Source of the DNA: Actinomycetes bacterium
GTDB taxonomy: Bacteria > Actinomycetota > Acidimicrobiia > Acidimicrobiales > RAAP-2
NCBI GenBank assembly: GCA_021806045.1
Contig: JAJZDI010000004.1
Span: 26,748 to 90,747 of the forward strand
DNA length: 64,000 bases
Direction: 5' to 3'
Part shown: one piece after another, positions 27,438 through 41,192 of the stretch
Position numbering within the stretch: position 1 is the first letter of the stretch
How the letters are laid out: each line of letters begins with the position of its first letter
Translations under genes and position numbers: made by a program
The notes under the pieces: model-generated
Databases searched by the model: none
What the model saw: only the letters and a program-made list of their open reading frames with translations
What the model was told of the DNA's origin: nothing

Positions 27438-30400
27438 ATGGGGCATCGTCGGATTCCGGCTGGTCGTGACGCGCGCCGCCAGCTGGTGCGTCCGCGGTCG
27501 GCCGGCACGCTGGTGGCGGCGTTCGTGTCCATGCTGGCGATCACGGGCGCCGGGCTGGGACCTGCCACGGCAGGAGCCTCGCCGGCCCCTGGTGCCCACC
27601 ATGCGGCACCGAAGACCGCCGTCGTCACGGCCGACGGCCCGCTCGGCATGAACCTGACCAACGCGCTGACCGCCTACAACGCCCTGCCGGGGGCGTCGAC
27701 CAACCAGGGGGTGACCGTCGCCTACATCGAGGGGGGCATCAACTGGCACCTCGGCGACGCCGCCACCCTGGCCAACTCCGTCTACGTGAACTGGCACGCG
27801 CTGCCCGTGCCGTGCTCGGGCACCACCGTTGCCAACGCCACCATGGTCGTCAACGGCACGACCCAGCCGTGCGCCACCGTCTACTCGTCCAACCGGGCCG
27901 ACTACACGCCGGACGGCAGCGGGATCGTCAACGCCGCCCAGTGGGCGCACGACCCCCGGGTCCACGACTCGAACGGCAACGGCGTCATCGACCCGGAAGA
28001 CCTCATCGCCGCCTTCTCCGACGGGGTAGACCACACCGGCCTGGGCTACACCAACGACATCTCGGGCTGGGACTTCTACCACAACCAGAACGATCCGGCC
28101 ATGGTCGACACCGCCTACGGCCATGCCAACAGCCAGATGGACGTGATCCACCACGAGTGCCCGATGTGCATGATCATGCCGGTCAAGGCGGGCGACGAAG
28201 CCCTCGATCCGACGGACAACCTGGCCAAGGCGTGGCAGTTCGCCGCCGACGAGGGGGCCAAGGTCATCGTCTCCGTGACCGCCGACCTGGGCTACTCGCC
28301 GTTCATGCGCCAGGTCGTCGACGAGCTGCATGCCAAGGGCGTGATCATGGTCGAGTCGTCCAACGACTTCGACTCGACCGACCACCAGGGCGGGATGTAC
28401 TGGCCGTACGTGATCCCCGGGAACGGCGCCGTGGCCACCCCGAGCGGCACCGCGTGGATCCGGTCCGACCTCACGTCGTGGGGGGTCCACAACATCCTCA
28501 CCGCCGCCACCGGCGGTGGGAGCACATCGGAGTCAACGCCGACCCTGGGCGGGGTGTTCGGCCTCCTGCTCTCGTATGCGAACCTGTCCGCAAAGGACGG
28601 CCTCATCACCACCGATCCGACCGGGCCGCAGGTCCAGCAGATCGTCCAGGACACGGCCACGCCGTTCACCGACACGTCGCTCGGCTGGCCCGGTACCCCG
28701 ATCACACCCGGCGCGCCCGACGACTGGAACGAACAGTACGGCTACGGCATGCCCGAGCTCGTCAGCGCCGAGAACGACATCACCGCCGGCGTCGTGCCTC
28801 CCGCCGCGTCGATCGACTCACCCGACTGGTACACGACCTTCGACCCGACCACCCAGACGTCGCCAGTCACGGTGACCGGCACGATCGACGCCGCCACCCC
28901 CACCACGACCTTCAACTGGCAACTCGAGGCCGCCACCGGCGGGCAGCCGGCCAACGCCGCGTTCACCACCATCGGCACCGGATCGGGTACCGGATCGTTC
29001 TCGGGAACGCTGGGCTCGCTCGACCTCTCCTCCCTCCCGTCGAGCTTCTGGCAGGCACCCGCGCAGCTGTCGACCGACAAGCAGCTGTCGACCAACGACC
29101 AGTACACGGTCACCTTCCGCCTGGTCGTCACGGACGGAAGCGGCAACATCGGCGAGGACCGCCGCGCCATCGACGTGGTCCACGACCCCAGCCTCCTGTC
29201 CGGCTTCCCGAAGGCCATCGACCCCGGTAGCGCCGGCACCGGGAGCGCCGGCCCGAACGGCACGGACGCACGGGCGAGCGCCGAGGGCCAGCCACAGGCC
29301 GTCGACCTCCAGGGATCCGGCCACCTCGACCTCGTCTTCGGCGACAGCTCGGGGCTCGTGCACGCCATCGACCCCGCCACCGGGAACGAACTGCCCGGGT
29401 GGCCGGTCCACGTCCCGGCAGTGGCCAGTTTCGTACCGCACACGGGCATCAACCCCGGCTACCAGCCCATCATCACCTCCGTCGCCGTCGGCGACCTGAA
29501 CCACACCGGCGCGCTCTCCGTTGTGGTGACCACCCTGGACGGCGCCGTCGACGTCTTTGACGCCCAGGGACAGGTCGAACCCGGTTGGCCCCAGCAGATG
29601 AACCAGGGGGTGGTGGCCCCCGCCATCCCGCGTCCTCAGGAGCCCTTCACCCGGCACCCGACCGACGAAGCGCTCTCCAGCCCGGTGCTGGCCCACCTGC
29701 AGGGAACGTCCCAGCTCGACATCGTCGCTGCCGGTGGTGACGGCGAGCTGCACGCCTGGCAACCCGACGGCCAGCCCGTCCCTGGTTGGCCCGTGCGGGT
29801 GGCCCTGCCGACCGGGTTCACCGTCCACTCTGGCTACACCCTCGAGAACGACCAGCGCCTGATCGCCACGCCGACCCTGGCCTGGTTCTCCGGCCGCAAC
29901 CCCGGTGATGGGCCAGGCGGCGCCTACACCCCGCCCGACGTCGTCGAGCGAAGCCAGTACACCCAGATCCAGGGTGCCGGCATCCAACCGCTCCCCTATT
30001 CGGAGGAGTTCGCCTACGGACCCAACGGCGCACTGCTGCCGGGGTGGCCGGCCACGGTCCAGGGCCTGGTCGAGTACTACGGCTCCGCACAGGACGCCAT
30101 CACCGAGGGTGCGAGCTCGCCGTCCGCCGCATCGGTGGACGGGAGCGGGAAGGACATCGTCACCGACACCCCCGTGTGGACGCCTCCCGTCGAGCTGAAC
30201 GGCACCGGCCAGGTGGTCGGCTCACTGGGCAACACCAACGGAGCGATCTCGTCCCTGTTCTCGACGCTCGCGTCCTCGGGCGGCTCCGCCACCACGTGCC
30301 AGACCACTCCCCCGCCTGATGTGCCCATCCCCTTCAACTCCTCCGGCGCGTTCGGCATGATCGGCGGGCACCTCGCCTACGCCCAGGCCGACATCGGCGC

Positions 30401-31892
30401 CGCGTCGTTCGGCTGCCTGCAGTACCCGAACGCCGGGCTGGGCCTCAACGAGTACGAGACGGCCGTACCGGCCAACGCGGCCAACGGGGGCGCCACCCAG
30501 CAGCTGCCCGGGTTCCCTGGTCCACGCCAGGGCCAGGGGTTCCTGTCGGAGCCCATCATCACCGACGTGACCGGGACCGGTCAGGGGTCGGTGGTGGAAG
30601 GCGGCGACTCCTCGGAGATCACCGCGGTCACGGCCAACGGGACCGAGGCACCAGGGTTCCCCAAGTTCATGAGCGGCTGGAACATCTATGCGCCCATCGC
30701 TGCCGACCTCCTCTCGAACGGCCACGTCGACCTGGCCACCACCACCCGGGAGGGCTACCTCTACGTGTGGTCGACGCCGGGGAAGGCCACGGCCAACGAC
30801 CAGTGGTGGACCGGCCGGCACGACGAGTACAACTCCGGCAACTACGGCGTGGACAGCCGGCCTCCCGGTGCCCTGCGGAGCCCGTCGTGGGATGCGACCA
30901 CCCACACGGCCACGTTCGTCGCCCCGGGTGACAACTGGTACGACGGCACGGTCGCCCGCTACGTGGTGACGGTGGCGCCGTCCGGCCTGCGCTACGTCGT
31001 CGATCCGTCCGGTCCGGCGGGAACGACCCAGACCATCGTGGCGCCGCCGGGGGCGAGGGGCATCGAGGTCGTCGCCGAGGATGCCGCCGGCAACGTGAGC
31101 CCGCCCGGCATCTTCGGTTCCGCACCGCCCGCGACAGCCTCTCCCGGTTACGACCTCACTGCGTCCGACGGCGGGGACTTCGCCTTCGGCACCGCCACCT
31201 TCGCCGGCTCCATGGGGGGCAAACACCTGAACGCGCCCATCGTCGGGACAGCCGGGGCGCCGGCAGGCCACGGCTACTGGCTGGTGGCCTCCGACGGCGG
31301 CATCTTCGCCTTTGGGGACGCCACCTACCACGGATCGATGGGGGGCAAGCCCCTGAACGCACCCATCGTCGGCATGGCCGCCACCCCCGACGGAAACGGC
31401 TACTGGTTGGTGGCCTCCGACGGCGGTGTGTTCGCCTTCGGGGACGCCACCTACCACGGATCGATGGGGGGCAAGCACCTGAACGCACCCATCGTCGGCA
31501 TGGCCGCCACCCCCGACGGAAACGGCTACTGGCTGGTCGCTTCCGACGGCGGCATCTTCGCCTTCGGGGACGCCACCTACCACGGATCGATGGGGGGCAA
31601 GCCCCTGAACGCACCCATCGTCGGCATGGCCGCCACCCCCGACGGAAACGGCTACTGGCTGGTGGCCTCCGACGGCGGCATCTTCGCCTTCGGGGACGCC
31701 ACCTACCACGGCTCGATGGGGGGCAAGCACCTGAACGCACCCATCGTCGGCATGGCCGCCACCCCCGACGGAAACGGCTACTGGTTGGTGGCCTCCGACG
31801 GCGGCATCTTCGCCTTCGGCGACGCACCCTTCGACGGCTCGATGGGGGGCAAGCACCTGAACGCACCCATCGTCGGCATGGCACGGCCCTGA
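27438..31892 (+). CDS. Large secreted subtilase-like / beta-propeller / 42-residue-repeat protein
   Basis: 1484 residues from ATG 27438, preceded by GGAGGGGG. A long Arg-rich signal peptide ends near ATAGASPAP. Residues about 80-450 resemble an S8 subtilase: VAYIEGGIN at the Asp position (Glu instead), GHANSQM at the His position, ESSND at the oxyanion Asn, and GSTSESTPTLGG at the Ser position. Residues about 590-1130 are FG-GAP-like propeller blades (AVDLQGSGHLDLVFGD and similar). An Fn3-like segment follows to about 1230. The end consists of 42-residue [17 protein letters not shown] units. It is a surface or secreted protein, possibly a degenerate protease turned binding module. Its C-terminal half parallels the gene at the left window edge. 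Confidence 0.88.
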   Translation: MGHRRIPAGRDARRQLVRPRSAGTLVAAFVSMLAITGAGLGPATAGASPAPGAHHAAPKTAVVTADGPLGMNLTNALTAYNALPGASTNQGVTVAYIEGGINWHLGDAATLANSVYVNWHALPVPCSGTTVANATMVVNGTTQPCATVYSSNRADYTPDGSGIVNAAQWAHDPRVHDSNGNGVIDPEDLIAAFSDGVDHTGLGYTNDISGWDFYHNQNDPAMVDTAYGHANSQMDVIHHECPMCMIMPVKAGDEALDPTDNLAKAWQFAADEGAKVIVSVTADLGYSPFMRQVVDELHAKGVIMVESSNDFDSTDHQGGMYWPYVIPGNGAVATPSGTAWIRSDLTSWGVHNILTAATGGGSTSESTPTLGGVFGLLLSYANLSAKDGLITTDPTGPQVQQIVQDTATPFTDTSLGWPGTPITPGAPDDWNEQYGYGMPELVSAENDITAGVVPPAASIDSPDWYTTFDPTTQTSPVTVTGTIDAATPTTTFNWQLEAATGGQPANAAFTTIGTGSGTGSFSGTLGSLDLSSLPSSFWQAPAQLSTDKQLSTNDQYTVTFRLVVTDGSGNIGEDRRAIDVVHDPSLLSGFPKAIDPGSAGTGSAGPNGTDARASAEGQPQAVDLQGSGHLDLVFGDSSGLVHAIDPATGNELPGWPVHVPAVASFVPHTGINPGYQPIITSVAVGDLNHTGALSVVVTTLDGAVDVFDAQGQVEPGWPQQMNQGVVAPAIPRPQEPFTRHPTDEALSSPVLAHLQGTSQLDIVAAGGDGELHAWQPDGQPVPGWPVRVALPTGFTVHSGYTLENDQRLIATPTLAWFSGRNPGDGPGGAYTPPDVVERSQYTQIQGAGIQPLPYSEEFAYGPNGALLPGWPATVQGLVEYYGSAQDAITEGASSPSAASVDGSGKDIVTDTPVWTPPVELNGTGQVVGSLGNTNGAISSLFSTLASSGGSATTCQTTPPPDVPIPFNSSGAFGMIGGHLAYAQADIGAASFGCLQYPNAGLGLNEYETAVPANAANGGATQQLPGFPGPRQGQGFLSEPIITDVTGTGQGSVVEGGDSSEITAVTANGTEAPGFPKFMSGWNIYAPIAADLLSNGHVDLATTTREGYLYVWSTPGKATANDQWWTGRHDEYNSGNYGVDSRPPGALRSPSWDATTHTATFVAPGDNWYDGTVARYVVTVAPSGLRYVVDPSGPAGTTQTIVAPPGARGIEVVAEDAAGNVSPPGIFGSAPPATASPGYDLTASDGGDFAFGTATFAGSMGGKHLNAPIVGTAGAPAGHGYWLVASDGGIFAFGDATYHGSMGGKPLNAPIVGMAATPDGNGYWLVASDGGVFAFGDATYHGSMGGKHLNAPIVGMAATPDGNGYWLVASDGGIFAFGDATYHGSMGGKPLNAPIVGMAATPDGNGYWLVASDGGIFAFGDATYHGSMGGKHLNAPIVGMAATPDGNGYWLVASDGGIFAFGDAPFDGSMGGKHLNAPIVGMARP
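31219..31892 (+). repeat. 126-bp coding repeats with alternating subtypes
   Basis: Six boundary copies of LNAPIVG recur every 126 bp. The residue before LN alternates: KHL, KPL, KHL, KPL, KHL, KHL. Central units are almost identical in DNA, including silent positions. This suggests duplication of a two-unit (252-bp) block and recent homogenisation. Confidence 0.9.
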
Positions 31893-34232: not shown

Positions 34233-34976
34233 TCAGGTGCCTGGTGGCGACGTCATGCCTGCAGGTGCAGGTGCAGTGATCACCACCTGCGGTGCCATCC
34301 CCGAGGGCGCGTGGCGTGCCGAGGGAACGAAGGCGATAAGCAGGCCTGCAGCGACGAGGAAGAGCACGAAGCCCACGTAGCGGCGGACCAGCGCCACGGC
34401 GGGGTGGGATCGCTGTTCCTCGAGGACCTCCTCGGCACTCCGACGGCGCCAGCGGGGCTGGGCCGCCGGAGCGGCCGCCGGGGCCTGGTCCACCACCTGC
34501 CCGAAGCCGGCCAGCGGGTCGACGGCCTGGGGAGCCATGCCCGGCTGTGCGTACTGCTGTGGTGCCATGGGCTGCTGGGGCGGCATGCCCGGCTGGGCGT
34601 ACTGCTGAGGTGGCATGGGCTGGGCGTACTGCTGAGGTGGCATGCCCGGCTGGGCGTACTGCTGAGGTGGCATGCCCGGCTGGGCGTACTGCTGAGGTGG
34701 CATGGGCTGGGCGTACTGCTGGGGCGGCATGCCCGGCTGGGCGTACTGCTGGGGCGGCATGGGCTGGGCGTACTGCTGGGGCGGCATGCCCGGCTGGGCG
34801 TACTGCTGGGGCACGGCACCCGAATTGAAGAATGCGTTACCCGAGCCGTCACCGAGGTCCGATCCCGCCATGCCCTGGGGCGGCATGCCGGCGGCAGCCA
34901 TCGCTTGGGCCTGTTGGGCAGCTGCCTCCTGGGCACGCTTCTTCTCCAGCTGCTTGCGGCTGATAGCGAACTCCAT
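34233..34976 (-). CDS. Pro/Gln-repeat membrane protein coupled to the Liv-type transporter
   Basis: 247 residues from ATG 34976; a GTG one codon earlier is also possible. The ATG overlaps the transporter stop as TGATG, and GGAGG lies 7 nt before it. A charged helix (about 5-25, SRKQLEKKRAQEAAAQQAQ) is followed by nine copies of PQQYAQP in units of 9-10 residues (about 58-150). A basic linker (RWRRRSAEEVLEEQRSHP) leads to one membrane helix (FVLFLVAAGLLIAFVP) near the C-terminus. The repeat is the same as in the tail of the upstream transporter. No known family is recognised. It probably keeps a disordered domain next to the transporter at the inner face of the membrane. Confidence 0.8.
   Translation of the reverse strand: MEFAISRKQLEKKRAQEAAAQQAQAMAAAGMPPQGMAGSDLGDGSGNAFFNSGAVPQQYAQPGMPPQQYAQPMPPQQYAQPGMPPQQYAQPMPPQQYAQPGMPPQQYAQPGMPPQQYAQPMPPQQYAQPGMPPQQPMAPQQYAQPGMAPQAVDPLAGFGQVVDQAPAAAPAAQPRWRRRSAEEVLEEQRSHPAVALVRRYVGFVLFLVAAGLLIAFVPSARHAPSGMAPQVVITAPAPAGMTSPPGT
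34536..34813 (-). repeat. 27/30-bp coding repeats for PQQYAQP units
   Basis: Nine units alternate between PQQYAQPGMP (30 bp) and PQQYAQPMP (27 bp). Neighbouring units are nearly identical in DNA, with synonymous change between GGT and GGG glycine/proline codon contexts marking two sub-blocks. A related unit occurs in the transporter gene near 35110-35140. Confidence 0.9.
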
Positions 34977-37900
34977 CACGCACCTCCTACCGGGTGGCCG
35001 TTACCCGCCTGGGCACCACCGGCTCCGTTCGGATCGACCCACCCTGCCGGCGGCGCGTTGACGTAGCCGGGCGGCGGGGGTGGTGGCGCCATCTGCATCC
35101 CCGGCTGGGGCGGCATGGGCTGGGCGTACTGCTGGGGCGCTGCCGGCATCGGAGCCGCCCCGACACCGGCGGCCACCGGTTGGGGCGCAGGAGCACCGAC
35201 GGTTGCGGGCACCTTCGGTGCCGGGCGTGGCGCCACCGGGCCGGATCGGCGCACGGCGGCGTCGTCGGTACCGAGATAGGCGGCGACCACGGAGGGGTCG
35301 TTCAGCACCTCCGACGTGCTCCCTTCGGAGATGAACCGGCCGACGTGCATGCACATGAGGCGATCCGCCACCGAGGAGACGAGGGGGACGTCGTGCTCGA
35401 TGACCACGAAGGCGGCACCCGTCTGCTCGCGCAGGCCCAGGATCAGCTCGCCGAGTGCTTCGGACTCGCGCTGGGCGATCCCCGAGGTCGGCTCGTCGAG
35501 GAGGAGCACCTTTGGCCGGTGCGCCACGGCGCACGCCAGCTCGACCACCCGGCGGGTACCAGTCGACAGCTCGGAGATGAACGAGTCCCGGTAGCGCTCG
35601 AGACCCATCTCGACGAGCAGCTCCTCGACCCTGTCCCGGATCGCCTCCTCCGAGTGCACCACGGCCGACAACCCAAGAGCTTCGGCCAGCGGGTCCCGGA
35701 CCGGCACCGACTGCTCGAGGGCGGTGGCCAGCGTGTCCGCCACGGTGAGGGACGGGAACAGGCGGGCGTCCTGGAAGACACGCCCGAGTCCCTGCGAGGC
35801 ACGGCGGGCCGGGGACAGCCGGGTGATCTCCCTCCCCTCCATGGCGACATGACCGGAATCGGGGACCGTGAAGCCCGAGCACACGTCGAAGAGGGTCGTC
35901 TTGCCGGCGCCGTTCGAGCCGATGATCCCGAGGATCTCGCCCGGTGCCACGCTCAGGCTGACGTCGTCCAGAGCGGCGACACCTCCGTAGTGCTTGGACA
36001 CGCCGGCGACGGTGAACGCCGGCGGCGGCGCGCCCGGGGTACCCGGTGGCGGCGGTGCCGCCACCAACTGAGGCCCTTCGCCCGATGCTGCCGCCTGGGC
36101 GGCTCGGCGGCGTGCCCGCTTCGCTGCAGAGAGGAACACCGACCGCAGCAGCTTCGGCTGCTGGGAGAGGTCGGGTGTGGGGCCGCTGAAGCGCACGCGC
36201 CCGCGCTCCATGAAGATGGCCCTCCCCGAGATGGCCGTCGCGACGTTCACCGACTGCTCGACGATGACGACGGTCACACCGCTGGCGGCGAGCGCTCGGA
36301 CGACCTCGAGCAGGTCGGCGACGACCGACGGCGACAGGCCGAGCGACAGCTCGTCGATGAGGAGGAGCTTGGGCCGGCACAGCAGGGCCTGGGCCAGCGC
36401 CAGCATCTGCTGCTCACCACCGGAGAGGAGCCCCGCCCGCTGGTCCCGCCGGGCACGCAGGATCGGGAACATCGTGAGCACCCGCTCCATGGCGGCCGCG
36501 ATGAACGCCTGGTCCTTCATGTGATGGCGAGCCGTCCACGTGGCCAGGCGCAGGTTCTCCGCAACCGTGAGCGACGGGAAGACGCTGCGACCTCCGAGCA
36601 CCGTGACCAGACCGGCCTGCACCCGCTGCGCCGGTGTCAGGGAGCTGATGTCCTGCCCGGCGAAGCGGACGGCGCCGCGAGTGGGGGTGAGGAGCCCGGC
36701 GATGGTGCGCAGGACCGTGGTCTTGCCGGCGCCGTTCGTCCCGAGCAGGGCGACCACCTCGGTCTGCCCGATGCCGATGGCCACCTGATTGAGCACCTTC
36801 GTCCTGCTCGTGTAGCCGGCGTCCACGTCGACCAGCGACACCAGCGACAGCTGCCGGTCCGGTGGGCTGGCGTCGGGCGCCTTGCCGTCCGCTGGGCCCT
36901 CCTGGCCGGCCTCGAGGGCCTCGAGGGCACCGAGGCGGAGTGCGGCGCTGTGTGCCTTCTCGTTGATGCCGCCCGCCAGCATCAGCTCGCGTGCGCGTGC
37001 CGACTCCTCGCCCGGCTGATGCAGCTCGGACGCTTCTGCCTTGCGGCCCAGGCGCAACTCCAGGCGGGTGAGCCACCAGTCGCGGACCATGAACACGAGC
37101 GATCCCAGGCCTTCGGGGATGACGAGCAGGATGAACAGCACGCCGACGCCGGTGGCGAGGAGCTGGAGGCTCTGGACGGGGATGAGGTTGACCCCTTCGA
37201 TCACGATGGCGCCGAGGACGGCGCCGGAGATGGAGCCGAGGCCGCCGATCACCACCATGACGAACACGGTGATCGACAGGTCCGGCTGGAGGCCACCGGC
37301 CTTGATGCCCTCGACGCTCAGCTCGTAGAGGCTCCCAGCGATACCGGCGATGGCGCCGGAGATGACGAAAGCCAGGAGCTTGCTTCGCATGGGACTGACG
37401 CCGTAGGCGGCGGCACCTCGAGCGTTGTCACGCACAGCGATGATGCCCCGTCCCGTCCTGGCAAGCCGCATGTTCCGCACGCCCGCGACAACCAGGATCA
37501 GGATCGCCAGGCAGAACTCGTAGAAGGTCGCCTGGGAACCGAGGTTGATCCGGCCGAAGAGGATCGGCCGTCCCACCTGGGACGGGTTCAGCCACGGGAA
37601 GAACTGCGACGAGAGGAGGTAGGAGGAGACGGGAACGGCGAAGGCCAGGGTGGCCACGGCCAGATACAGGCCGGGGACCCGCAGGGACGGGATGCCCAGG
37701 ATCACCGCCACCACGGCGCCGACCACCGCGGCTGCCACCATCGCCACCAGGAAGTTCACGTTCTGGTGGATGAGGAGCGCACCCGCGGTGGCTGCTCCCA
37801 CGCCGACGAAGGCGAACTGCCCCAGGCTGATCTGGCCGGCCCATCCGGTGAGCACCACGATCGACACGCCGATGATGGCGTAGATGGCGACGCTGGCGCT

Positions 37901-39067
37901 CACCAATTGGTTCGACTGGCTGAAGGTGAGCGGTACCGCCACGGCGGCGGCCAGCACCACGACGCCGACCACCCACTTGGCCGCCACTACCTGCCGGAGG
38001 CGGGCCAGGTGGTGGGGGATGGGAGCCACCTCGCGGATGGCGACGAAGTCGCCCATTCCCCCGTCGTCCACGCGGGTGATCCGGTTCCGCAGGATCATGA
38101 GCATGAGCCCCAGGCCGATAGCGATGAACTGGGCCACGTCCTGGGCTGCGGCCTGGAGGGTGATGGCGTAGACGACCTCATTGACCACGCCGAGGACCAG
38201 CGACCACAGCACGGTGAGCGGCAGTGACTCCATGCCCCCCAGCACGGCGGCAGCCAGCGGAAGCAGCAGGGCCGCCGGGGTGGTGACCTGCCCGACCGTG
38301 AAGTTCCCGATGTTGGACTGGGCGGCCAGGATGGCGCCCACCCCCGAGAGGAGCGCGGCCACGATCCACGTCACCCGGCTCAGGTTCCGGACGGGGATCC
38401 CGAGCAGCAGGGCCCGCTCGGACGAGTCCGCCGCGCCCCGGATGGCCACGCCGTAGTCGGTGCGGACGAAGAACACGTAGAGGAGGATGAGGGCCACGGG
38501 AACGGCAGCCATGGCCACGATGTCGTCCCCCGTGAACGAGTTGGGGTTCAGGTAGAACGAGATGTGGATGGGGAAGCTGAAGGTGCCGGCCGACTTCTGG
38601 GGCACCAGGTTCTCGAACCCGAGCTGGGCGGCGCCCAGCAGCTGGTAGATGCCGATGGTGGCCACTGTCAGCAGGAGCCGGGGCGCGTTGGACATGCGGC
38701 GGATGAAGAGGGCCTCGACCAGCCAGCCGGTGACGACGGCGGCCACCAGCCCGAGCGGTACGGCCACCCAGTATGACCAGCCCTTGCCCTCGACCAGCAG
38801 CACGGCGACGGCCGCTGCCAGCCCGCCCATCACCTGCTGGGAGAAGTTGATGATGCGGGCCGAGCGGTAGATGAGGACCAGGCCCATGGCCACGAGCGCG
38901 TCCAGGCCGCCGACCACCAGGCCCTTGACCAGCACGCCGGCCCCGAACGGGTGGACCTTGTCGACGCCGAAGTAGGCGGCGACGAGGACCACCGCGATGC
39001 CGACGCCGATGAGGATCCTCCGTTGGGTTGCTTGGTCGCGACCGCCGGTCGCAAGAGTCGTCGTCAT
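34976..39067 (-). CDS. Four-domain branched-chain amino acid-type ABC transporter (LivH-LivM-LivF-LivG fusion)
   Basis: 1363 residues from ATG 39067, which overlaps the binding-protein stop in an ATGA. Domains in order: LivH-like permease (about 1-340), LivM-like permease (about 350-660), LivF-type ATPase (about 735-970; Walker A GTNGAGKTT, signature LLSGGEQQMLAL, LLLIDELSLGLSP) and LivG-type ATPase (about 1015-1265; Walker A GSNGAGKTT, VFQDARLFPSLTV, VLLLDEPTSGI). The second ATPase signature is ELSTGTRRVVEL, not LSGGQ. A Pro-rich tail of about 95 residues ends with PQQYAQPMPPQPGM and PPPPPPGYVNAPP. One chain therefore carries all membrane and motor parts that are normally four genes. It imports an unknown substrate delivered by the upstream LivK-like protein. 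Confidence 0.93.
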   Translation of the reverse strand: MTTTLATGGRDQATQRRILIGVGIAVVLVAAYFGVDKVHPFGAGVLVKGLVVGGLDALVAMGLVLIYRSARIINFSQQVMGGLAAAVAVLLVEGKGWSYWVAVPLGLVAAVVTGWLVEALFIRRMSNAPRLLLTVATIGIYQLLGAAQLGFENLVPQKSAGTFSFPIHISFYLNPNSFTGDDIVAMAAVPVALILLYVFFVRTDYGVAIRGAADSSERALLLGIPVRNLSRVTWIVAALLSGVGAILAAQSNIGNFTVGQVTTPAALLLPLAAAVLGGMESLPLTVLWSLVLGVVNEVVYAITLQAAAQDVAQFIAIGLGLMLMILRNRITRVDDGGMGDFVAIREVAPIPHHLARLRQVVAAKWVVGVVVLAAAVAVPLTFSQSNQLVSASVAIYAIIGVSIVVLTGWAGQISLGQFAFVGVGAATAGALLIHQNVNFLVAMVAAAVVGAVVAVILGIPSLRVPGLYLAVATLAFAVPVSSYLLSSQFFPWLNPSQVGRPILFGRINLGSQATFYEFCLAILILVVAGVRNMRLARTGRGIIAVRDNARGAAAYGVSPMRSKLLAFVISGAIAGIAGSLYELSVEGIKAGGLQPDLSITVFVMVVIGGLGSISGAVLGAIVIEGVNLIPVQSLQLLATGVGVLFILLVIPEGLGSLVFMVRDWWLTRLELRLGRKAEASELHQPGEESARARELMLAGGINEKAHSAALRLGALEALEAGQEGPADGKAPDASPPDRQLSLVSLVDVDAGYTSRTKVLNQVAIGIGQTEVVALLGTNGAGKTTVLRTIAGLLTPTRGAVRFAGQDISSLTPAQRVQAGLVTVLGGRSVFPSLTVAENLRLATWTARHHMKDQAFIAAAMERVLTMFPILRARRDQRAGLLSGGEQQMLALAQALLCRPKLLLIDELSLGLSPSVVADLLEVVRALAASGVTVVIVEQSVNVATAISGRAIFMERGRVRFSGPTPDLSQQPKLLRSVFLSAAKRARRRAAQAAASGEGPQLVAAPPPPGTPGAPPPAFTVAGVSKHYGGVAALDDVSLSVAPGEILGIIGSNGAGKTTLFDVCSGFTVPDSGHVAMEGREITRLSPARRASQGLGRVFQDARLFPSLTVADTLATALEQSVPVRDPLAEALGLSAVVHSEEAIRDRVEELLVEMGLERYRDSFISELSTGTRRVVELACAVAHRPKVLLLDEPTSGIAQRESEALGELILGLREQTGAAFVVIEHDVPLVSSVADRLMCMHVGRFISEGSTSEVLNDPSVVAAYLGTDDAAVRRSGPVAPRPAPKVPATVGAPAPQPVAAGVGAAPMPAAPQQYAQPMPPQPGMQMAPPPPPPGYVNAPPAGWVDPNGAGGAQAGNGHPVGGA

Positions 39068-40827
39068 CGGACCTGCTTTCCAGGAGCTGTGGTCTTGGTC
39101 TTGGCTGATGGCGGGGCAACCGCGCCCGTCGCCGCCGAGCCGAGCTTCAACTGGCCCTGCTGACCCGGCTTGGGGAAGGACGTCGGCGACGGGATCGAGC
39201 AGGCGAGCGGCTTGCTGAGCGGCATGGTCGTGATGTTCGAGAAGTACGGGTACTGGGTGCCCCCGTTGCACAGCTCGAAGGCGCCCTTCTGGCCGTCGGC
39301 GATGCTGGTGCCGTTCGGGTCCCACTTCATGATCTGGAACGTGGACGAGGGATCGTAGGGTCCGTACGCACCGTTCCATCCGGCGAGCTCACCGCCAGGG
39401 ATCGACTCGGGGATCGACTTCATCGCCTGCTCGAAGTTGGCCGGGGTGAGGTTGGGTCCGGCCAGCTGGAGCGCATCGAAGAACTGCAGCACGGTGGCGT
39501 AGACGAGGTTGTAGGAGGGGAAGATCTTCGCCGACGGGTCGGTGTTCCCCAGGTTGAAGGCCGTGTTGGCCTCGGCGTCGGCCAGCGGCAACGGGTAGGC
39601 GCCCGTGGTGATCAGGTGCTTGGTCTGGCTTGCCGGGTAGAGCCGCATGAACTTCTCGGTGGTGGTGGCGCCGGCCGCGTACAGCGACTGGAAGAACCAT
39701 TCCGGCTCGTAGTGATCGGCGTTGGCCGACTTGAAGTAGAACATCGGGGAGATCGGGTCGCACCCGGAGCAGATGACCGTGTTGACGCCCGCCTGCTGCA
39801 TTTCGGAGATGGCGCTCGACGCCTCGTCGCCCAGCTTGGACAGGTCGAAGGTGACCGCCGCCTGCTTCACCGGTAGCAGGTTGTACTGCTGGAGCGCCTG
39901 GTCGAGCGCCTGGGTGCAGGCAGCACCCTGGGGCGTGTTCTGGTAGACGACGCCGATCTTGATGGGCTTGCCCTTGAGCGAGCCGCCGGCGAACTGGGCG
40001 CCCACGCCCCTCAGCTGGCGGCCGAAGATGGCGGCGATGCCGTCCGCCGACTTGTTGCAGTTGGGTCCAGGGGAGTACAGCCACGGACTGTTCTGCTGGT
40101 AGTACTGCTGAGTGTGGATGTAGAGCTGGAAGGCGATGACGTGGTTCGCCATCAGGTCCTCGGTGTAGGGATCGCTGGAACCGACCAGTGAGATGTCGGC
40201 GAAGGCGTGGAGCGAGTCGGCAACGTTGACCGCGTCCGCCTCGGCCTGGGTGGCGCCGCCGCCCGTGTCCTCGGTGATGAAGTTCCCCTTGCCCACGTAG
40301 GGCTCGAGGACCACGTGGCGCCCGTAGAGCTCGAAGCTCTTGTTGAAGGTGTTGAACAGGGCCTGCATCATCTGGATGGCTTCCTGGCTGGTGCCCACGA
40401 CGTCCTTGGGCACGAGGGTGTAGAGGGCGTTCAGGATGCTCGACGTCGCCTCGCGGAACGACACGTTGATGGTCGTCGCCGTCACACCCGGTGCGGTCGC
40501 CCCGCCGTTGTTCCCGTGCCAGGCGGGCTCACAGGGCGGCGCGTAGTTCGACCACGGCACCTGGAGGACTCGCGGCCCGCAGGCGATGCCACCGGCAGTG
40601 ACCCCCGCGCCGTAGGGCGCGTTCATCGGTGTCTGACCCTTCAGGTAGGTGATGCCGGTGCCAGCCGTCGACAGCGACGAACTGGCCACCTTGGGCAGGC
40701 CCAGCAGCGCGGCCACCAGCAGCACGATGAGGGCGGCACCGAACAACTGCCGGTTCACGATGGCCCGGTTGCGCTCGCGGTGACGGGCCGGGTTCCCAGC
40801 CGTGCCCTGAAAGACTGTTCCAGCCAA
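39064..40827 (-). CDS. LivK-type substrate-binding protein, membrane-anchored
   Basis: 587 residues from TTG 40827, chosen because AAGGGGGAAC precedes it; the frame is open to 40923 without a ribosome site. One hydrophobic segment (LFGAALIVLLVAALLG, about 25-40) has no lipobox Cys, so it is an uncleaved anchor or signal peptide. The body is a type-1 periplasmic binding fold: TINVSFRE, DISLVGSSDPYTEDLMANHV, IKIGVVYQNTPQGAACTQAL, ISEMQQAGVNTVICSGCDP. It is longer than typical LivK (about 390), with extra sequence at both ends. The stop overlaps the transporter start, so both are made together. The ligand is unknown. Confidence 0.9.
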   Translation of the reverse strand: MAGTVFQGTAGNPARHRERNRAIVNRQLFGAALIVLLVAALLGLPKVASSSLSTAGTGITYLKGQTPMNAPYGAGVTAGGIACGPRVLQVPWSNYAPPCEPAWHGNNGGATAPGVTATTINVSFREATSSILNALYTLVPKDVVGTSQEAIQMMQALFNTFNKSFELYGRHVVLEPYVGKGNFITEDTGGGATQAEADAVNVADSLHAFADISLVGSSDPYTEDLMANHVIAFQLYIHTQQYYQQNSPWLYSPGPNCNKSADGIAAIFGRQLRGVGAQFAGGSLKGKPIKIGVVYQNTPQGAACTQALDQALQQYNLLPVKQAAVTFDLSKLGDEASSAISEMQQAGVNTVICSGCDPISPMFYFKSANADHYEPEWFFQSLYAAGATTTEKFMRLYPASQTKHLITTGAYPLPLADAEANTAFNLGNTDPSAKIFPSYNLVYATVLQFFDALQLAGPNLTPANFEQAMKSIPESIPGGELAGWNGAYGPYDPSSTFQIMKWDPNGTSIADGQKGAFELCNGGTQYPYFSNITTMPLSKPLACSIPSPTSFPKPGQQGQLKLGSAATGAVAPPSAKTKTTAPGKQVR

Positions 40828-41192
40828 TGTTCCCCCTTGTGCAAGGTGGCGACGATCAGGGAACGTGCCCTGCCAGCCGCCGGGCTCGACCCCCACGGGC
40901 ACTGCACACGTCGCCCGGCTCACGCTGAGTCACGGAAACGTTAGTGCAGCGCCCTGGCGCGGCGGTGGGTTTCACCTCCGCGCCGGGAGCCGATCGTCAT
41001 CCTGTCGTCCTCGGTATCCGATCCGGTCATCCGACCGTCCGAGTATTCGTCGGCGCGTCGGGCGGTCTACCTGAGCGACTTGTGCACTTCGACGATGACA
41101 TGGACAGAAACATATCGAGATGCGCCGTCCCGGGCCCGGTCCGCCAGCGCAACTACCGGTGGGAGCCGGTCGGAGGGAGCTGGTCGGAGCGG
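40828..41192. other. 365-bp region upstream of the binding-protein gene
   Basis: The region lies between the binding-protein start and the end of the GH1 gene, both on the minus strand. It is less GC-rich around 41090-41120. Possible minus-strand -10 boxes are TAACGT (40943-40938) and TATGTT (41114-41109). No convincing -35, operator or hairpin was found, and no small gene is supported. Confidence 0.4.

Follow-up and report, generated by a model that had tools for sequence, protein, structure and literature searches.

The LivJ/K-LivHMGF systems are ATP-binding cassette (ABC) importers of branched-chain amino acids that belong to the HAAT family (Transporter Classification 3.A.1.4), and their LivHMGF part is encoded by four separate genes. 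Substrates of importers of this type also include other amino acids, amides and urea. The locus considered here lies in a 64,000-nucleotide stretch of contig JAJZDI010000004.1 (GenBank assembly GCA_021806045.1, Actinomycetes bacterium, order Acidimicrobiales); this whole stretch is called the window. At 34976-39067, on the minus strand, a single frame of 1363 codons takes the place of the four separate subunits. Like LivJ/K-LivHMGF, the locus has all four core domains, with distinguishable LivF- and LivG-type ATPases, a Gln switch in the former, and an adjacent binding-protein gene. Unlike them, it places the four domains in one chain, and its binding protein, apparently anchored in the membrane, has diverged far.

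Less complete fusions are also found. In WP_332880747.1 of Streptomyces sp. NBC_00564 (order H-M-G, 937 residues) the permeases are joined to a LivG-type ATPase with an STG signature, as in the window, but that chain has three domains and LivF is a separate gene. Related loci of the class and phylum (L057-L156 and L203-L242) share the domains and motifs of the window, and 32 of the 144 loci compared, the window and L011 among them, have its one-chain order. Unlike the window, most of these loci consist of two genes, and 74 of the 144 have a major facilitator superfamily (MFS) domain ahead of LivF. Full-length ABC exporters with a degenerate site carry repeats of a transmembrane and a nucleotide-binding domain in one chain, whereas the window has importer-type permeases first and the ATPases after them. 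What the window chain would share with such exporters, as far as the excerpted text of PMC7756269 describes them, is one degenerate and one consensus ATP site. The window chain is a variant of a known importer kind, and it opens onto a more surprising family.

Four domains in one conserved frame

The gene begins with an ATG at 39067 and ends with a stop at 34978-34976, and it contains no internal stops. All of its parts are on the minus strand. The LivH-type permease domain (residues ~1-325, 38093-39067) and the LivM-type permease domain (residues ~361-675, 37043-37987) correspond to two stretches of Pfam BPD_transp_2 (whole-protein E 1.4e-57), the two permeases of a Liv-type (HAAT) importer; the LivM match lies at residues 391-649, and the LivH segment recurs in relatives. 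A linker (residues ~676-742, 36842-37042; the M-F linker) leads to the LivF-type ATPase (residues ~742-968, 36164-36844), which is followed by the LivG-type ATPase (residues ~1016-1270, 35258-36022) and a Pro-rich tail (residues ~1271-1363, 34979-35257). Both ATPases were assigned from Pfam and from their motifs. There are two stretches of ABC_tran (whole-protein E 1.6e-63), BCA_ABC_TP_C matches residues 1246-1270 with 26.6 bits against a cut-off of 25.5, and the switch residue is Gln in the first ATPase and His in the second. The best solved match of the LivF-like ATPase is 1ji0, which we take to come from Thermotoga.

The reading of 34976-39067 in an earlier note, namely a 1363-codon frame with two LivH/LivM permeases, LivF and LivG ATPases and a Pro-rich tail, in the order permease-permease-ATPase-ATPase, is upheld by the open reading frame and by Pfam. 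The fixed 1:1:1:1 stoichiometry suggested there would follow from the single chain, provided that the chain is not processed. In the window's own genome this locus is the sole full-length match to the fusion.

A fused frame of this kind could be produced by a sequencing or assembly error that joins neighbouring genes, since the permease (HM) and ATPase (FG) genes are adjacent in differing frames in most split relatives and a single indel could join them. A contig from a separately assembled metagenome-assembled genome (MAG), Actinomycetes bacterium MAS3.bin127, refutes this for the window. This contig, L011, was the one full-length relative among the 4 loci found in a scan of named genomes with a single-protein query that reached close relatives only. 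It carries a full-length, 1364-codon version of the fusion, with 92.7% identity to the window chain, a synonymous divergence (dS) of 0.452, a nonsynonymous divergence (dN) of 0.044, and dN/dS of ~0.10. The ratio is low in each of the eight segments, which include both linkers (M-F and F-G), and is ~0.11 over residues 671-742, across the junction. The neighbours of the L011 fusion are identical in kind and have identical start and stop overlaps; the three-gene unit described below is kept. No stop interrupts the window gene inside 34976-39067, and L011 has the same frame independently. Moreover, the H-M-F-G order occurs at 32 of 144 loci, and 17 of these together with one M-F-G row form a clade of 18 with support of 100. 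A joining error at the window is hardly credible. The gene, its domains, its conserved frame and the three-gene unit are direct observations.

The synonymous divergence between window and L011 is uneven. Over 34976-36862 (ATPase half, linker and tail) dS is 0.25-0.39, about half the 0.56-0.65 of the permease half, which hints at recombination or codon constraint.

A single gene could still give an ordinary multi-subunit Liv complex, if the chain were cut or if translation restarted near the M-F linker. Two adjacent genes, HM followed by FG or MFS-FG, are the commonest arrangement at the 144 loci, and in-frame start codons do occur around the linker, one of which (GTG758) has a 5/6 Shine-Dalgarno-like match. 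That codon falls within the LivF fold, however, and none of the other starts between residues 640 and 760 matches at more than 3/6. At residues 671-742 dS is 0.65; an internal ribosome site would tend to depress this value, and no such drop is seen. With no convincing start in residues 640-760, an internal restart near the linker is not supported, and a working transporter made of separate pieces seems unlikely.

Probable asymmetry of the two ATP sites

In the excerpted text of PMC7756269 an ATP site is composed of the Walker A, Walker B and H-loop of one ATPase together with the signature of its partner. The motifs read here were Walker A, signature, Walker B and switch. The LivF-type ATPase of the window has GTNGAGKTT (Walker A), LLSGGEQQ (signature), LLLIDEL (Walker B) and VEQ (switch, with Gln for His). 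The LivG-type ATPase has GSNGAGKTT, ELSTGTRR, LLLDEP and EH. The Gln switch of F and the STGTRR signature of G fall in one composite site, and the motifs read for the partner site are canonical. Because both deviations lie in the same composite site, one degenerate ATP site is likely in the window chain. This site may be unable to hydrolyse ATP.

The earlier note had drawn an asymmetric transporter with one degenerate site from the non-canonical signature of the second ATPase. The asymmetry is probable, as the deviations share a site, but STGTRR is not peculiar to the fusion. LivG-type domains have STG at 136 of 144 loci, through several architectures, and the canonical SGG at none (0/144), and a special signature in the window protein was rejected; their switch is His in 143 of 144, with one gap. 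LivF-type domains have a Gln switch at all 144 loci and an SGG signature at 142. The same pattern is followed where the ATPases are separate. For example, the four other Liv loci of the window's own genome, which have separate ATPase genes, show the Gln switch in 4/4 F proteins and lack LSGGQ in 4/4 G proteins, and the solved LivF-like 1ji0 likewise reads VEQ where it aligns. On these grounds the likely asymmetry seems to be usual in Liv systems rather than a result of this fusion.

Partner proteins and the proposed mechanism

The fusion is the middle member of an overlapping three-gene unit, which the earlier note did not include. Upstream, at 39064-40827 on the minus strand, is a probable substrate-binding-protein gene whose product has one N-terminal hydrophobic segment by hydropathy. 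Its start is taken at a TTG at 40827 (the mechanical open reading frame starts at 40923), and its stop overlaps the ATG of the fusion. The assignment draws on the sequence and on homologues beside related loci: these are present in the stretch at 25 of the 32 H-M-F-G loci, 3 of the 25 on the opposite strand. An aligned set of 25 binding-protein members, out of 83 candidates, contains 14 with matches to Peripla_BP_6 (best E 2.5e-17); the window's own protein is without such a match. A tblastn search of plasmids with the binding protein gave nothing usable. The window's neighbouring genes, by Pfam, point to no substrate.

Downstream, at 34233-34979 on the same strand, is a gene for a 248-residue protein with PQQYAQP repeats and, by hydropathy, a single hydrophobic segment close to the C-terminus. 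The start of this gene overlaps the stop of the fusion. The protein matches nothing in Pfam; it is kept in L011 with a different number of repeats. Strong matches to its non-repeat ends are confined to the window's own loci and L011; weak ones occur in L112 and L123 (E 0.003 and 0.011). The PQQYAQP repeats are common to this protein and to the tail of the fusion, which is ~93 residues long with 27% Pro and also contains PPPPPPGY. The window has 93 residues beyond the G domain, L011 has 94, and the remaining 30 H-M-F-G rows have 0-69, so that among the 32 rows the long Pro-rich tail belongs to the window and L011 only. Tail and downstream protein are a local addition, and one might guess that they cluster or anchor the transporter at a membrane site.

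From these features a Liv-type (HAAT) ABC importer is proposed, with two permeases and two ATPases as one polypeptide, served by the binding protein encoded upstream (probability about 0.8). We infer that the chain remains uncut and works as an importer, and that the upstream protein acts as its binding protein. The membrane-anchored binding protein would hand a small organic substrate to the paired permeases H and M, and uptake would be powered by the ATP sandwich that F and G form within this chain. ATP use would be asymmetric: the degenerate site would be made of the Walker A/B and switch of F with the signature of G (Gln for His; STGTRR), and the consensus site of the Walker A/B and His of G with the LSGGEQQ of F. 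Fusion probably secures assembly and equal dosage and not a new activity.

Several results weigh against this proposal or parts of it. The binding protein of the window matches nothing in Pfam, and alone or as a profile it matches no solved structure in the PDB; in 7 of the 32 H-M-F-G stretches a binding-protein homologue was not found. Against the NCBIfam models the fusion scores below the cut-off for LivF (246 versus 441) and LivG (279 versus 362) and above it for UrtE (321 versus 286) and LptB (285 versus 240), all as sums over both ATPase domains. Because of this summing the scores name no substrate, and because neither the LivF nor the LivG equivalog cut-off is reached the two ATPases are spoken of as LivF and LivG types and not as orthologues. 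The F domain keeps its Walker A Lys (143/144, one gap) and its Walker B Asp-Glu (144/144), and the degenerate site may still hydrolyse ATP. AlphaFold2 gave unusable models from two-sequence alignments, both for the F-G half (mean pLDDT, the predicted local distance difference test score, 34.0) and for the binding protein (29.3); the geometry of the ATP sites is therefore by analogy.

Some of the same features could belong to an ATP-driven sensor or regulatory complex, or to a system that moves substrate outward with its Pro-rich partner, in place of a nutrient importer. The binding protein has diverged beyond what Pfam recognises, the downstream protein and fusion tail have unusual repeats in common, and related loci contain an MFS domain, whose fold is often that of an exporter. 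However, the binding-protein homologues beside related loci, some with Peripla_BP_6 matches, and the membership of the permeases in BPD_transp_2, a family known from importers, make a sensor or an exporter quite improbable, and uptake is preferred.

Repeats are also found in other frames. In L077, a member of the window's family, the fusion is followed by a different Pro-rich frame with PPGY repeats. A 1484-residue frame at 27438-31892 of the window has several near-identical GGIFAFGDATYHGSMGGK-like repeats at its end and no Pfam match at 1e-4.

Distribution, fusing and splitting among relatives

The F-G half of the chain was used as the query in samples of the order, the class and the phylum, all within the window's phylum, with match cut-offs of E 1e-100, 1e-90 and 1e-85, respectively. 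Stretches around all 89 order-sample matches, and around further ones, were examined. In the class sample, 22 of 100 genomes belong to one genus with genomes of ~1 Mb. Genome counts are lower bounds, since matches were cut at these E values and an initial screen scored a subset of the candidates in each genome; one class-sample match (G144) and two truncated phylum-sample matches (G175:C65 and G189:C97) stand outside the count. Matches to the F-G half occur in at least 27 of 59 order-sample genomes, at least 25 of 100 in the class sample and at least 12 of 198 in the phylum sample, where two of the 12 (G164 and G225) turned out to have F and G as separate genes. The H-M-F-G chain itself is present in at least 15/59, 8/100 and 2/198 genomes, respectively, and in at least 24 genomes overall. 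These are the MAG of L011 plus 23 genomes that fall under 19 family codes; one of the 24 is from outside the class. The earlier note had called the one-chain order rare and proposed a search for its spread. Rarity within the order is rejected by these counts; the chain is common in the order, occurs in other parts of the class as well, and is sparse in the phylum. Among the titles and abstract openings listed from open-licence literature, a description of a one-chain Liv importer or an MFS-LivF fusion was not found. Among plasmids, tblastn with the fusion matched 871 records, with no single place covering 80% of the query in any of them.

The 144 loci, which include the window, L011 and two plasmid loci, were sorted from stop-to-stop frames and blastp to segments of the window protein and to five MFS segments. 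They comprise 74 with MFS-F-G, 32 with H-M-F-G, 27 with F-G, 4 with H-M-G and MFS-F, 3 with M-F-G, 1 with H-M-MFS-F-G, 1 with H-M-G and F, and 2 with separate F and G genes. In the three M-F-G rows (L143, L149 and L152) an H domain went undetected, and they are not counted as H-M-F-G.

The split loci suggest how the chain could arise. At 98 of the 101 (74 MFS-F-G and 27 F-G) the HM gene is upstream on the same strand, in frame relation +2 in 86 of the 98. The median distance from the HM stop to the F domain is 66 nucleotides in F-G loci and 1398 in MFS-F-G loci; one F-G locus has 1483 nucleotides, room for an MFS domain that blastp missed. With HM upstream, mostly in frame +2 and across a short gap, one small indel could join HM to FG. 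The chain most likely arose in this way, when an HM gene became joined to the FG gene beside it.

Trees, which were quick ones with SH-aLRT (approximate likelihood-ratio) support only, indicate more than one change between fused and split forms. On a tree of the F and G domains of all 144 rows, 8 changes of the H-M-F-G label are required, of which well-supported branches force at least 4. The clade of 18 that holds the window includes L228, from outside the class. A second tree under a mixture model, with the 32 H-M-F-G rows and 34 others chosen after the first tree had been seen (L143, L149 and L152 left out), needs 7 changes, at least 3 forced. On this 66-row set a single clade of all 32 H-M-F-G rows, a group defined by architecture, was rejected by the approximately unbiased test (p-AU 0.00026). 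Judged from these trees, the group has switched between fused and split forms more than once; the trees give changes and not the direction of single ones.

The MFS-containing relatives are the largest set among the 144 loci. At their 74 loci the frame ahead of LivF matches MFS segments by blastp, beside a fused HM permease gene. An example is the MFS-LivF-LivG gene at L230:4569-7661 (plus strand), and others are found in L219, L083, L113, L091 and L204. Pfam confirmation of MFS_1 covers L230 (7.5e-47), L207 (1.7e-33), L223 (9.3e-20) and L015 (1.1e-35), the other loci being assigned by their blastp segments. With an MFS-LivF query from Embleya, both parts were found in one match in 10 of 149 phylum-sample genomes. 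The M-F linker of the window fusion is too short to hold the MFS domain that many relatives have ahead of LivF.

Two further arrangements were seen. In L223 (2471-7657, plus strand) all five domains, H-M-MFS-F-G, occupy one frame of 1729 codons. This is a single case, its sister L225 has two overlapping genes, and an indel error as the source of the single frame is possible. In L015 (3444-8829), from the Embleya sp. NBC_00888 plasmid NZ_CP108785.1, an MFS-LivF gene is followed by an H-M-LivG gene; the PLSDB gene table lists no feature over this interval.

The window chain may represent one state of a modular transporter family in which fusion and splitting recur. In the MFS-LivF-LivG form of this family, the commonest at the loci examined and accompanied by HM and binding-protein genes, the ABC ATPases, if the hybrid works as built, would be covalently tied both to a binding-protein-dependent importer and to a secondary transporter, and uptake would be coupled with counter-transport or efflux; this view is tentative and falls somewhat short of an even chance. 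The MFS-LivF-LivG fusion is more surprising than the window chain, and it raises the question of why a secondary transporter has been joined to ABC ATPases. A one-chain Liv importer would be convenient for structural and single-molecule work, because mixing of subunits is impossible. With split, half-fused and fully fused forms, the family offers a natural set of one importer in which one can test directly how covalent linkage affects assembly and the asymmetric use of ATP.

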